From Rhizobium sp. CIAT894 (GTDB lineage: Bacteria; Pseudomonadota; Alphaproteobacteria; Rhizobiales; Rhizobiaceae), in contig NZ_CP020947.1 in NCBI RefSeq assembly GCF_000172795.2, positions 2,421,001-2,485,000 of the forward strand: a stretch of DNA of 64,000 nt, written 5' to 3'. Below the pieces are notes generated by a model. That model did not search any database, was not told the origin of the DNA, and saw nothing but the letters and a program-made list of their open reading frames with translations. The position numbers and the translations under genes are program-made. Positions 5,738-22,274 of this stretch are shown piece after piece (position 1 is the stretch's first letter; each line of letters opens with the position of its first letter).

Positions 5738-6475
<738 letters not shown>

Positions 6476-6480
6476 CTATC

Positions 6481-6645
6481 TTGGCAGGCCGGTCTTCTGA
6501 CTTGGCGTCATCCGTCTGCCGCAGCCTTCCCGGCAAAAGCCAGTGGCGTAATGATGCGGCAGGCGTCGGCCTTACAGCGTTGGGCACGTTCCGGTCTCGC
6601 ACCGGATTCCCGATTCTCCCGCCTCACCGGCGGGCACCTGACGGC
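6481..6645 (-). promoter_or_regulatory. Cobalamin (B12) riboswitch upstream of bluB
   Basis: On the minus strand the element starts with CAGGTGCCCGCCGGTGAGG, contains GGGAATCCGGTGCGAGACCGG and the B12-box-like CGCCACTGG, then GGGAAGGCTGCGG, and closes with AAGTCAGAAGACCGGCCTGCC. This order of conserved blocks is that of the cobalamin riboswitch family. It lies about 54 bases before the bluB ATG, a position that suits control of translation or early termination. Confidence 0.92.
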
Positions 6646-6782
6646 GCATCTATTTCAGGAAACGGATGCCGCGGCAAGCCGAAGCGCAATAGCGAGCCCC
6701 ACCCGCGGCGGTTTGAAGCGGCTCGAAAAACCCCTTCATCGATCGTTTCTATGGCCTTATCACCGCCGAAGGCGTATGCACG

Positions 6783-10420: not shown

Positions 10421-11002
10421 ATGAAGAAAGTTATGACCGCATTGCTTTTGGCCTGCACCGCCGTCGCCATGCCCATGGGCATATCCATGGCGCAGGATGC
10501 GAAGCTTGCTCCGATCGCCGACTACGTGACGAGCGACATCAAACCCTGGCTGAACGACCCTGCGATCATCGAGGCCATCAAGGCACAGAATGCCGCAAAC
10601 GCCAATCTCAGCCAGGCCGAGATCGACGCCCTCGACAAGAAGTGGCGTGCTGAGGTCGATGGTTCCGACCATTCGATGATCGACGGCGTGCTCGGCAATG
10701 CGCTGTCGAAATTCCTGCAGGAAAAGAAGGCTGCGTCCAACGGCAAGATTGCTGAAATCTTCGTCATGGATGCAAAGGGGCTGAATGTCGGCCAAAGCGA
10801 TCCCACCTCCGACTACTGGCAGGGCGACGAGGGCAAGTTCCAGAAATCCTTCGGCGCCGGCAAGGACGCCGTCTTCGTCGACGAGATCGAAAAGGACGAA
10901 TCGACCCAGGCGCTGCAGTCGCAGGCAAGCGTCACCATATCCGATGACAAGGGAACGCCGATCGGCGCCATCACCGTCGGCGTCAACGTCGACGCCCTCT
11001 GA
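10421..11002 (+). CDS. Secreted Cache/PDC-like periplasmic protein
   Basis: 193 aa. An N-terminal signal peptide (KVMTALLLACTAVAMPMGISMA, cleaved before QD) sends it to the periplasm. The mature part has EIFVMDAKGLNVGQSDPTSDY followed by WQGDEGKFQKSF and ends ISDDKGTPIGAITVGVNV. This is the pattern of a PDC/Cache sensor strand pair (D-x-G ... G-x-I-x-V-G-V), but without any membrane anchor or signalling domain. The start ATG follows GGGAAGGGAAC. It lies 62 bp after the chemoreceptor gene and is probably co-transcribed. A free periplasmic ligand-binding partner for that receptor is plausible but not shown. Confidence 0.75.
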   Translation: MKKVMTALLLACTAVAMPMGISMAQDAKLAPIADYVTSDIKPWLNDPAIIEAIKAQNAANANLSQAEIDALDKKWRAEVDGSDHSMIDGVLGNALSKFLQEKKAASNGKIAEIFVMDAKGLNVGQSDPTSDYWQGDEGKFQKSFGAGKDAVFVDEIEKDESTQALQSQASVTISDDKGTPIGAITVGVNVDAL

Positions 11003-11032
11003 TCTCAGCTTCCGCGTTCATATCGCCCGGAA

Positions 11033-11063
11033 ATCGCCCGGAAGCAGCACGCTTCTGGGCGAT
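11033..11063 (+). terminator. Hairpin after the Cache-like gene
   Basis: ATCGCCC-G-GAAGC / GCTTC-T-GGGCGAT forms a 12-bp stem with one mismatch, 31 bases past the stop codon. It lacks a clean T-run, so it may be a factor-dependent terminator or a 3'-end stabiliser. Confidence 0.5.
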
Positions 11064-11168
11064 ACGCGTTCTGCCTCCCTGCGGCAGCGACTGGGGGGCC
11101 GCAGGAGCCGGATTTTCAGGCCGCAAATTCTGCGTGACATCAGGCGGCCGTGGCGCTACATACGCCTG

Positions 11169-11243
11169 ATGTCGACCACTTCGATCTACGCCTCGCGATT
11201 TTATTGGTACCGCTGCTCCCAGCGGATGCGGGTCTATGCGTAA
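11169..11243 (+). CDS. Aromatic leader peptide of the DAHP synthase attenuator
   Basis: 24 codons. The peptide begins MSTTSIYASR, then has Phe-Tyr-Trp-Tyr in a row (codons at 11199-11210), and ends RMRVYA. Six of 24 residues are aromatic, and all three aromatic amino acids made from DAHP are present. Stop TAA is at 11241-11243, about 90 bases before the DAHP synthase start. The ribosome-binding site is poor, and the ATG lies within the right arm of an inverted repeat (11138-11146 / 11163-11171). The composition, position and the RNA structures that follow argue that this is a regulatory leader and not a chance ORF. Confidence 0.8.
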   Translation: MSTTSIYASRFYWYRCSQRMRVYA

Positions 11244-11299
11244 CTGAAGTCAACGCGACGACAACCCGAACAGCCGCTAGTCTACCTGGCGGCTTTTTT
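11210..11299 (+). promoter_or_regulatory. Transcription attenuator (pause hairpin, antiterminator, terminator) of DAHP synthase
   Basis: Segment 1 CCGCTG (11210-11215) pairs with segment 2 CAGCGG (11220-11225) to give a pause hairpin. Segment 2 AGCGG (11221-11225) can instead pair with CCGCT (11274-11278) of segment 3. Segment 3 AGCCGCTAG (11272-11280) pairs with segment 4 CTGGCGGCT (11286-11294), giving a 9-bp terminator stem followed by six T. The Phe-Tyr-Trp-Tyr codons end exactly at segment 1. A ribosome stalled there for lack of charged aromatic tRNA would mask segment 1, free segment 2 for segment 3, and let transcription reach the gene at 11334. Confidence 0.82.
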
Positions 11300-11333
11300 G
11301 TTTCGCCCGGTATGACCAAACAGGAGCCATACC

Positions 11334-12401
11334 GTGTCCGATACCATTGATGATCTGCGAATCCTCGAGATCACCCCGCTGACCAAACCCGCCGATATCA
11401 TTGCGGAAATCCACCGCGATGCTGTTGTCACCGAGACGGTGACCAGCAATCGCGATGCGATCCATCAAATTCTCCAGGGCAAAGACGATCGCCTGATCGT
11501 CGTCATCGGCCCCTGCTCCATCCACGACCCCGCTGCCGCCCGGGACTATGCGGCGCGGCTCCTGGAGCAGCGCCGCCGCTTCGCCGACGATCTCGAAATC
11601 GTCATGCGCGTCTATTTCGAAAAGCCCCGCACCACCGTCGGCTGGAAGGGCCTGATGAACGACCCGCATCTCGACGGCAGCTACCGCATCGAGGAAGGGT
11701 TGAGGATTGCCAGACGCCTGCTGCTCGACATCAATGCCATGGAGCTTCCGGCCGGCGTCGAATTCCTCGACACGATCACGCCGCAATATATCGCCGACCT
11801 CGTCAGCTGGGGCGCGATCGGCGCACGCACGACCGAAAGCCAGATCCATCGCCAGCTCGCCTCCGGCCTCTCCTGCCCGATCGGTTTCAAGAACGGCACC
11901 GATGGCAGCGCCCGCGTCGCGCTCGACGCGATCCTGGCCGCCTCGCAGCCACATCATTTCCCCGCCGTCACCAAGGATGGACAGGCGGCGATCGCCTCGA
12001 CGAGGGGCAACGAGGACTGCCACATCATCCTGCGCGGCGGCAAGCGCCCGAATTATGAGGCGGCCGATGTCCAGGCGGTGGTCAGCGAAGCCCTCAAGCT
12101 CGGCGTGACCCCGCGCATCCTCATCGACGCCAGCCATGCCAACAGCAATAAGGATCCGATGAACCAGCCGCATGTGGTCAAGGACGTCGCCGGACAGATC
12201 GCCGCCGGAAACCGCCACATCAAGGGCATGATGATCGAAAGCAACCTCGTGGCTGGCCGCCAGGATCTCGTCCCCGGCAAGCCGCTGGTCTACGGCCAGT
12301 CCATCACCGATGGCTGCATCGACTGGGATATGTCGGTCGCCGTGCTGGAAGACCTCGCCGTTTCCGCCCGCGAGCGGCGCAAGGCAGCCGTTGCAGCCTG
12401 A
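11334..12401 (+). CDS. aroG: DAHP synthase, class I (AroF/G/H family)
   Basis: 355 aa. It condenses phosphoenolpyruvate and erythrose 4-phosphate to DAHP, the first step of the shikimate pathway. Family motifs are RLIVVIGPCSIHDP, VYFEKPRTTVGWKGLMNDP, GARTTESQIHRQLASGLS, AVTKDGQAA and IDASHANSNKD, covering PEP, E4P and metal sites. The N-terminal arm (residues 1-40) is the part that carries feedback control in E. coli homologues. It starts with GTG, with AGGAG eight bases upstream. Expression is probably controlled by the aromatic attenuator just upstream. A non-homologous class II DAHP synthase sits 8.5 kb away at 20901, so the two are likely regulated differently. The symbol aroG is by family and does not assert a particular feedback ligand. 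Confidence 0.93.
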   Translation: MSDTIDDLRILEITPLTKPADIIAEIHRDAVVTETVTSNRDAIHQILQGKDDRLIVVIGPCSIHDPAAARDYAARLLEQRRRFADDLEIVMRVYFEKPRTTVGWKGLMNDPHLDGSYRIEEGLRIARRLLLDINAMELPAGVEFLDTITPQYIADLVSWGAIGARTTESQIHRQLASGLSCPIGFKNGTDGSARVALDAILAASQPHHFPAVTKDGQAAIASTRGNEDCHIILRGGKRPNYEAADVQAVVSEALKLGVTPRILIDASHANSNKDPMNQPHVVKDVAGQIAAGNRHIKGMMIESNLVAGRQDLVPGKPLVYGQSITDGCIDWDMSVAVLEDLAVSARERRKAAVAA

Positions 12402-20900: not shown

Positions 20901-22274
20901 TCAGCCGTTGGCAACCATACGCTTCTCGTCGCGGCCGCCCTTCATGCGTTCGGCAAGCAGGAAGGCGAGCTCGAGCGCCTGGTCGGAGTTGAGGCGCGGA
21001 TCGCAATGGGTGTGGTAGCGATCCTGCAAGTCATCGGCGGTGACGGCGCGGGCGCCGCCGGTGCATTCCGTTACGTCCTTGCCGGTCATCTCGACATGGA
21101 TGCCGCCGGGATGCGTGCCTTCGGCGCGGTGGATCTGGAAGAAGCTTTCGACTTCCGAAAGAATCCGCTCGAAGGGTCGGGTCTTGTAGTTGTTGAGCGT
21201 GATCGTGTTGCCATGCATCGGGTCGCAGGACCAGACGACCTTGCGGCCTTCGCGCTCGACGGCGCGGATCAGCCGCGGCAGGTTCTCGGCAACCTTCTCA
21301 TGGCCGAAGCGGCAGATCAGCGTCAGGCGTCCGGCTTCGTTAGCCGGGTTCAGAATGTCGATCAGCTGCAGCAGATCGTCGGCCTGCAGCGATGGGCCGC
21401 ACTTGAGGCCGATCGGGTTCTTGATGCCGCGGCAATATTCGATATGCGCATGGTCGGCCTGGCGTGTGCGGTCGCCGATCCAGATCATGTGACCTGACGT
21501 GGCATACCAGTCGCCCGAGGTGGAATCGACGCGGGTCAGCGCTTCTTCGTAGCCGAGCAGCAGCGCCTCATGGCTGGTGAAGAAATCGGTCTCGCGCAGG
21601 CTCGGATGGTTTTCCGAGGTGATGCCGATCGCCTTCATGAAATCCATGGTTTCGCTGATGCGGTCGGCAAGCTTGCGGTAGCGCTCGCCCTGCGGGCTGT
21701 CCTTGACGAAGCCGAGCATCCACTGATGCACGTTTTCGAGATTGGCGTAACCGCCCATCGCGAAGGCGCGCAAAAGGTTCAGCGTCGCAGCCGACTGGCG
21801 GTAGGCCATGGCCTGGCGTTCCGGGTTCGGAATGCGCGACTCCTCGGTGAACTCTATGCCGTTGATGATGTCGCCGCGGTAAGCGGGCAGCGTCACGTCG
21901 CCCTGCTTCTCGACATTCGACGAACGCGGCTTGGCGAACTGACCGGCGATGCGGCCGACCTTGACGACCGGCAGCTGCGCGCCGAAGGTCAGCACGACGG
22001 CCATCTGCAGGAAGGCGCGGAAGAAGTCGCGGATATTGTCGGCGCCGTGCTCGGCGAAGCTCTCGGCGCAGTCACCGCCCTGCAGCAGGAAGCCGTTGCC
22101 TTCGGCGACATTGGCGAGATGCTTCTTCAGGCGGCGCGCTTCGCCGGCAAAAACCAGCGGCGGATAGCTGGCAAGCGTGGCCTCCGTTGCCGCCAAGGCG
22201 GCTGCATCCGGGTATTCGGGAACCTGCAGGATCGGTTTCTGCCGCCAGCTGCTCGGGGTCCAATTCTCTGCCAT
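20901..22274 (-). CDS. aroF: DAHP synthase, class II (plant-like)
   Basis: 457 aa. It catalyses the same first shikimate step as the class I enzyme at 11334 but belongs to the class II (plant/Mycobacterium) family. Metal and substrate motifs are visible: [53 protein letters not shown] and [19 protein letters not shown]. It starts at ATG 22274 ([19 protein letters not shown]) with GAGGTGAGTGAC upstream; the GTG at 22292 would add six residues. It is a single gene bounded by a strong terminator. Names vary between genomes (aroF, aroG, aroA); the class is the firm part of the call. Confidence 0.95.

Follow-up and report, generated by a model that had tools for sequence, protein, structure and literature searches.

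DAHP synthase catalyses the step at which carbon is committed to the synthesis of all the aromatic amino acids, and attenuation of its genes by leader sequences is known: it has been reported in Corynebacterium glutamicum and proposed in Acholeplasma, Escherichia coli and Shewanella. Neshat et al. 2014 are said to have described the aroR leader of aroF in C. glutamicum. According to the accessible parts of two articles, this aroF, a DAHP synthase gene, is preceded by an aroR leader containing Phe-Tyr-Phe, and its attenuation responds to Phe and not to Tyr (PMC11802643, PMC4046766). In Acholeplasma, uORFC-13-1 and a terminator lie before the DAHP synthase gene aroF; attenuation is proposed there, and the available excerpt names only Phe as the signal (PMC8632094). 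RNA motifs have also been predicted before aroF and aroH of Shewanella, the former being termed an 'attenuator sensing tyr-tRNA' with reference to work in E. coli (PMC2659441). These are proteobacterial DAHP synthase genes with a predicted 5′ RNA, although they belong to neither the alpha nor the beta class, and the accessible portion of that article shows no leader peptide. In Sinorhizobium meliloti, the RNA of the trpL attenuator of trpE(G) starts at the ATG of the leader ORF, as stated in the part of the source available (PMC7298713). Among the listed open-licence literature matches, judged by title and the start of the abstract, none describes an alpha- or betaproteobacterial DAHP synthase leader; such a description may exist in the survey of proteobacterial attenuators by Vitreschak et al. 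2004.

The leader considered here precedes a class I DAHP synthase gene in the window, by which we mean the whole stretch of 64,000 nucleotides of Rhizobium sp. CIAT894 DNA that was analysed (Table 1). It is very probably a ribosome-mediated transcription attenuator of the DAHP synthase gene, read mainly through Tyr and Phe, as judged from its sequence. Compared with published descriptions, it resembles aroR of C. glutamicum in placing a leader peptide before a DAHP synthase gene, for which attenuation is reported in that species, and it resembles uORFC-13-1 in its layout of upstream ORF and terminator. Both of those systems belong to other phyla, and they differ further in that Tyr is reported as irrelevant in the first and only Phe is named in the second. 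Like trpL of S. meliloti, the leader is alphaproteobacterial and seemingly leaderless, whereas trpL reads only Trp and serves another gene. The Rfam family Phe_leader (RF01859), found on pheST- and pheA-type genes, likewise combines an aromatic leader with a terminator. Nevertheless, when the window and 19 DAHP synthase loci are scanned with Rfam, no known leader family is placed on the DAHP synthase leader: RF01859 matches 0 of the 19 loci at its gathering score and has no match in the window, nor at E 1. In a control, all 7 phe-type loci match RF01859 at the gathering score and neither tyrS-type locus does.

Table 1. Features of the leader and the DAHP synthase gene in window coordinates; rows are those of the Rhizobium-type set (the window and 28 related Rhizobium/Neorhizobium loci, 29 in all).
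Feature	Position	Strand	Basis
Intergenic stretch	11003-11333	+	upstream gene end at 11002; GTG of DAHP synthase at 11334
-35-like hexamer GTGACA	11134..11139	+	GTGACA in 17/29 rows, TCGACA in 12/29
-10-like hexamer TACATA, 6 nt ahead of leader ATG	11157..11162	+	promoter scoring across 29 rows
Leader ORF, 24 codons + TAA, MSTTSIYASRFYWYRCSQRMRVYA	11169..11243	+	sequence reading; ATG 11169, TAA 11241-11243
Control codons TTT TAT TGG TAC (Phe-Tyr-Trp-Tyr), codons 11-14	11199..11210	+	sequence reading
Segment 1: CCGCTG core and weaker pairing back into control codons	11203..11215	+	sequence reading, local folds
Segment 2: CAGCGG and CGGGT, partner of segment 1 or segment 3	11220..11233	+	sequence, folds
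Segment 3: ACCCG, forming antiterminator helix B, and AGCCGCTAG, forming antiterminator helix A or the terminator 5′ arm	11264..11280	+	folds, covariation
Segment 4: CTGGCGGCT and T run 11294-11299, intrinsic terminator 3′ arm	11286..11299	+	fold -15.2 kcal/mol, z -3.74
Shine-Dalgarno-like AGGAG ahead of DAHP synthase GTG, outside terminator	11322..11326	+	sequence reading
Class I DAHP synthase, 355 aa, GTG start	11334..12401	+	Pfam DAHP_synth_1 PF00793, E 4e-91

The sequence-only reading of this locus had described a 24-codon ORF with Phe-Tyr-Trp-Tyr in a row, followed by the GTG of a DAHP synthase. The ORF, its aromatic codons and the GTG are all found at the positions given above, the class I assignment coming from Pfam. 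The start at ATG 11169 is our choice, and 6 of the 29 Rhizobium-type rows hold an extra in-frame start codon upstream. That reading also had the control codons abutting segment 1 exactly, which needs correction, as the single base 11210 belongs both to the last control codon and to segment 1. The DAHP synthase GTG lies 34 nt past the T run of the terminator, and a search of the same genome with its protein gives no second match at E 0.001. Among 20,000 dinucleotide shuffles of 11003-11333, four or more consecutive aromatic codons within a short ORF turn up in 21 and a terminator in 84, while the two are both in place in 0. A scan of the whole window for similar short ORFs returned none and is uninformative, since it also missed the real leader, which in-frame start codons upstream extend to an ORF (10785-11243) beyond the length limit of the scan.

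The RNA can be drawn in two alternative forms. The proposed 1:2 pause stem CCGCTG/CAGCGG is present at 11210-11215 and 11220-11225, and the 3:4 terminator has the expected 9-bp stem (AGCCGCTAG at 11272-11280 with CTGGCGGCT at 11286-11294) and six T at 11294-11299, the first T of the run being also the last paired base of the terminator. The 2:3 antiterminator proposed earlier, AGCGG 11221-11225 with CCGCT 11274-11278, is there as well, but it is longer than had been described, with further helices formed by CGGGT 11229-11233 and ACCCG 11264-11268 and, inside these, by 11237-11241 and 11253-11257. The local 1:2 fold of the window takes in part of the control codons, and CGGGT then serves both the extended 1:2 stem and the antiterminator. 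Folded alone, the terminator is equalled by 1 of 200 shuffles, whereas the antiterminator (11220-11279; -18.5 kcal/mol, z -1.57) is equalled by 17 of 200; in a separate fold test of interiors, the 2:3 region of the window has z -0.62, and neither value sets this region by itself apart from shuffles. The fold of the whole leader contains CCGCTG/CAGCGG together with the terminator and only moderately beats shuffles (z -2.41). As in ribosome-mediated transcription attenuators, a short ORF carries a run of codons for end products of the pathway, an intrinsic terminator lies between leader and gene, and an antiterminator excluding that terminator is indicated by sequence, fold, one covarying 2:3 pair and fold statistics. 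An automatic pick of GGCGGC, upstream, as segment 2 of the window was rejected as a chance match in favour of the segment that immediately follows the control codons on their 3′ side.

Upstream of the leader, a promoter-like site is found at a nearly constant distance. The best spacing between the -35- and -10-like hexamers is 17 nt in 27 of the 29 rows, the window among them, and 16 nt in the other 2. When 141 distances are scored, the promoter-like score peaks at 6 nt before the ATG (mean 8.0 of 12), against a mean of 5.5 of 12 at the best distance outside 5-7 nt, and in 28 of the 29 rows a distance of 6 or 7 nt ranks first or shares first place; the first scan of these rows was limited to 4-9 nt before the ATG, and it is the control scan that took in the 141 distances. 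None of the motifs AGGA, GGAG, GAGG and AAGG precedes the leader ATG in any of the 29 rows. Transcription is thus predicted to start at or next to A11169, and the leader ORF is probably leaderless.

Within Rhizobium and Neorhizobium, the leader ATG occupies the same position and the stop follows 24 codons in all 29 rows (TAA in 15, TAG in 14); synonymous changes and the TAA/TAG exchange are the kind of variation seen in these ORFs. Codons 11, 12 and 14 (Phe, Tyr, Tyr) do not vary in any row, although the pattern used to locate the rows includes these bases and all 29 rows matched it. From the last core Tyr codon (14) to segment 2, the distance is 10 nt throughout. Codon 13, on the other hand, is TGG (Trp) in 8 rows, TCG in 19 and AGC in 2, that is, Ser in 21 of 29. 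The best DAHP synthase gene tree implies 4 changes between Trp and Ser, a soft count since forks in that part of the tree are weakly supported; by our reckoning, 2 changes suffice if the weak forks are ignored. The tropici-type and Neorhizobium groups have Ser, which we take to be the older state for that reason. The exchange also bears on the RNA: the local 1:2 fold reaches -15.8 and -15.6 kcal/mol with the Ser codon TCG (L003, L005) and -13.3 and -13.1 kcal/mol with the Trp codon TGG in otherwise equal stretches (the window, L004), TGG losing one pair, 11206-11230, of the extended 1:2 stem. This extended stem is absent in L015, L017 and L023. An alignment across Rhizobiaceae, put forward earlier as a check on conserved aromatic codons and compensatory stem changes, bears out codons 11, 12 and 14 and leaves the second expectation without support: no covariation is found within Rhizobium, where the stems hardly vary.

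Beyond Rhizobium, the 80 best loci for the DAHP synthase protein were compared. A leader rule (a short ORF with at least three aromatic residues, two of them in a row), which is loose and also marks chance ORFs beside real leaders, marks 77 of the 80 loci, or 76 once L040 is rejected by eye; no leader is found at L032, L040 and L072, and L030 has a minimal one (Phe-Tyr). Examples include Tyr-Phe-Trp-Tyr-Phe-Ser-Tyr in Bradyrhizobium and Phe-Phe-Phe-Tyr-Phe-Ser-Tyr in the betaproteobacterium Collimonas. For counting and alignment, 71 rows were kept, leaving out the three loci lacking a leader, L079 (whose leader and terminator are present and were missed by the segment-2 rule) and six duplicates (L057, L058, L068, L073, L074, L077). 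Phe and Tyr occur together in 90 of 91 leaders and Trp in 52 of 91, these being the 14 codons before segment 2 in the 71 rows, read in the frame richest in aromatic residues, which biases the counts upward, and 20 peptides entered by hand. The claim that all three aromatic amino acids are sampled therefore stands for Phe and Tyr and fails for Trp as a general feature, Ser occupying its position in most Rhizobium-type rows. In 41 other rows, the last aromatic codon lies 11 nt from segment 2 in 27, 16-17 nt in 8, where His or Asn replaces Tyr, and 5-15 nt in 6.

Covariation was assessed in 35 diverse rows of the 71 (alignment A2, in which segment 3 is misplaced in L054 and L075). In the 2:3 structure, one pair is G-C in 26 rows and A-U in 7 Rhizobium-type rows; in the 3:4 structure, a pair is A-U in 18 and G-C in 17. 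Both structures exceed 500 of 500 shuffles on covariation score, shuffles that keep relatedness in, whereas the number of 2:3 pairs changing on both sides, a single one, is matched by 448 of 500. The 2:3 covariation is probably one event, and stem covariation between groups rests on few events. Among 32 loci reduced to less than 80% identity, the interiors between segments 2 and 3 beat shuffles in 27 (mean z -0.91; z < -1 in 13), while antiterminator helix B alone scores marginally better than shuffles (mean z 0.45). All 14 distinct Rhizobium-type rows show a clear 1:2 stem with no gaps, as do 9 of 31 others, and it is absent in Bradyrhizobium, so the state without a stalled ribosome may work differently there.

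The leader and the gene travel together. A covariance model, R1, built from the 35 rows of A2, was searched in genomes of the order and of the phylum. In the order (249 genomes), the DAHP synthase is found at E 1e-40 in 30 genomes, and the 30 strongest leader matches (E <= 3.6e-14) lie in exactly those genomes, directly upstream of the gene; the next leader match has E 4.2e-7. Five of seven stretches with weak R1 matches in the order look like plain terminators, not leaders; the other two, L117 and L120, precede TyrS and a TyrS-like protein, respectively. In the phylum (398 genomes), 36 of the 39 best DAHP synthase matches (our cut, E <= 4.4e-143, gene and leader tables being matched by eye) have a leader match at E 1e-4 immediately upstream. 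The remaining ones, in G534, G578 and G490, have no leader match, and none is visible by eye in their stretches. By eye, at least 12 more leader matches adjoin weaker DAHP synthase matches among the matches listed, where most of the at least 225 phylum genomes with a DAHP synthase match have no adjoining leader match. In 20 phylum stretches, picked for having leader matches, every leader contains Phe and Tyr; our guess is that some leader-bearing phylum genomes are gammaproteobacteria.

Away from the listed DAHP synthase genes, R1 also meets other leaders in the phylum: L123-L126 are of pheST type, L128 and L130 of pheA type (genes by eye, leaders by Rfam), L127 is of pheA type by Pfam, and at L131 a WWW leader is seen, by eye, before a gene of trpE(G) type. 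Among the matches listed, L129 and L132-L135 look like plain terminators. Leaders of the Phe_leader type are found weakly, at E of about 1e-9 to 1e-5. The pheST-type leaders L123-L126 and many betaproteobacterial DAHP synthase leaders both hold the DNA core TTTACTTTAGC, which could reflect either common descent or common constraint; in several rows, the AGC region of this core is base-paired in the local fold.

How the leader may act can be proposed from these elements, and the steps that we infer, namely translation, stalling and regulated read-through, would run as follows. The transcript would begin at or beside the AUG and be translated leaderless. With ample charged Phe- and Tyr-tRNA, the ribosome would run through segment 2 and leave, whereupon 1:2 and 3:4 would form and transcription would end at 11294-11299. 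When Tyr or Phe is scarce, or also Trp in the lineage of the window, the ribosome would wait on codons 11-14 and cover segment 1, leaving segment 2 free; 2:3 pairing would then follow and DAHP synthase would be made. The edge of a ribosome is expected about 10 nt past the codon in its A site. Segment 2 starts 10 nt past the last Tyr codon of the window, near the expected edge of a ribosome stalled there, and should thus be free to pair with segment 3. Because of their distances to segment 1, the Tyr codons 12 and 14 should weigh most and Phe 11 least. The leader appears to be an old and widespread switch of a well-known kind, turning DAHP synthase on when Phe or Tyr is scarce.

Other genes of aromatic biosynthesis in the same genome were also inspected. 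The trpE(G) gene (L161, just above G000:C1 3170008) has a leader, MIKSLNIAVWWWAR (WWW), with a terminator, the counterpart here of trpL of S. meliloti. For class II DAHP synthase, the genome has a single match, at 20952-22262 (-) of the window and some 9 kb away from the class I gene; by eye, no leader precedes it, and by the leader rule none precedes the prephenate dehydratase gene of this genome.

A hairpin such as 11272-11299 could be a plain terminator, serving the upstream gene or acting constitutively, with the ORF arising by chance. This is hardly tenable for a hairpin 270 nt beyond the end of the upstream gene (11002), with a promoter-like site between them, especially as leader, segment 2 and terminator accompany the DAHP synthase gene across order and phylum and no shuffle has both parts in place. 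The earlier claim of a complete attenuator before the gene holds in its anatomy, its aromatic codons, its linkage to the gene and the pairings that covary between groups, with the reservation that Trp is not a fixed part of the sensor. It is this last point that separates the preferred reading from one in which Trp counts as much as Phe and Tyr and the aromatic pool as a whole is sensed. TGG at codon 13 of the window, near segment 1, is what such a sensor would have, and Trp recurs in 52 of the 91 leaders, including the Bradyrhizobium leaders listed; the same position is nonetheless Ser in 21 of 29 Rhizobium-type rows and changes state on the gene tree, while Phe and Tyr are shared by nearly every leader. 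Trp, moreover, has its own sensor in this genome, given the WWW leader of trpE(G). Nor does a codon alone prove sensing, as the Phe-Tyr-Phe leader of C. glutamicum aroF answers to Phe and not to Tyr in the accessible text of PMC11802643. We consider an equal role for Trp unlikely; in all likelihood, Tyr and Phe are the conserved signals, and the Trp codon, an addition specific to its lineage, would cost the 1:2 pair 11206-11230.

In addition to attenuation in cis, the terminated leader might have a role in trans, as an RNA or through its peptide, by analogy with what is reported of rnTrpL and peTrpL of S. meliloti. The apparently leaderless start recalls trpL, and the length of 24 codons is fixed in every Rhizobium-type row; as control codons and RNA pairing can explain the conserved codons, such an added function seems improbable. 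Attenuation in cis through Tyr and Phe allows a broader proposal, which we put forward tentatively: one old attenuator may have been inherited or passed on with class I DAHP synthase through alpha-, beta- and probably gammaproteobacteria, reading Phe and Tyr together to control entry into the shikimate pathway and having a core in common with the leader of pheST. Exchanges of a single codon, like that from Ser to Trp seen at codon 13 within Rhizobium, might bring in or drop a third amino acid, at the cost of a base pair, and so retune specificity within a genus. A leader that reads two or three end products at the first step they share would do by means of translation what TyrR/TrpR repression does in E. 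coli (PMC11802643, accessible part), and a widespread RNA family absent from the Rfam release used would be added. The natural exchange of Trp and Ser in Rhizobium offers a ready-made test of which codons are actually read by a ribosome-mediated attenuator.

Further leaders and RNA elements were seen along the way. Tyrosine-rich leaders with terminators lie before TyrS at L117 (G116:C3:397142-397252; leader MIKTAATFVYFYYVTSIPAAA, gene by Pfam tRNA-synt_1b and S4) and before a TyrS-like protein, identified by eye, at L120 (G237:C62:99439-99546). Their core pattern occurs in these two genomes only, out of 5 tried, in a family of the same order, and a tyrS attenuator is possible. The ORF behind the Phe leader at L127:567-2198 has chorismate mutase and prephenate dehydratase domains and, at its cut end, a partial DAHP synthase domain, an apparent pheA-DAHP synthase fusion under one attenuator. 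Finally, Rfam finds a cobalamin riboswitch in L115 and another (RF00174, 114.8 bits) in the window at 6470-6656 (-).
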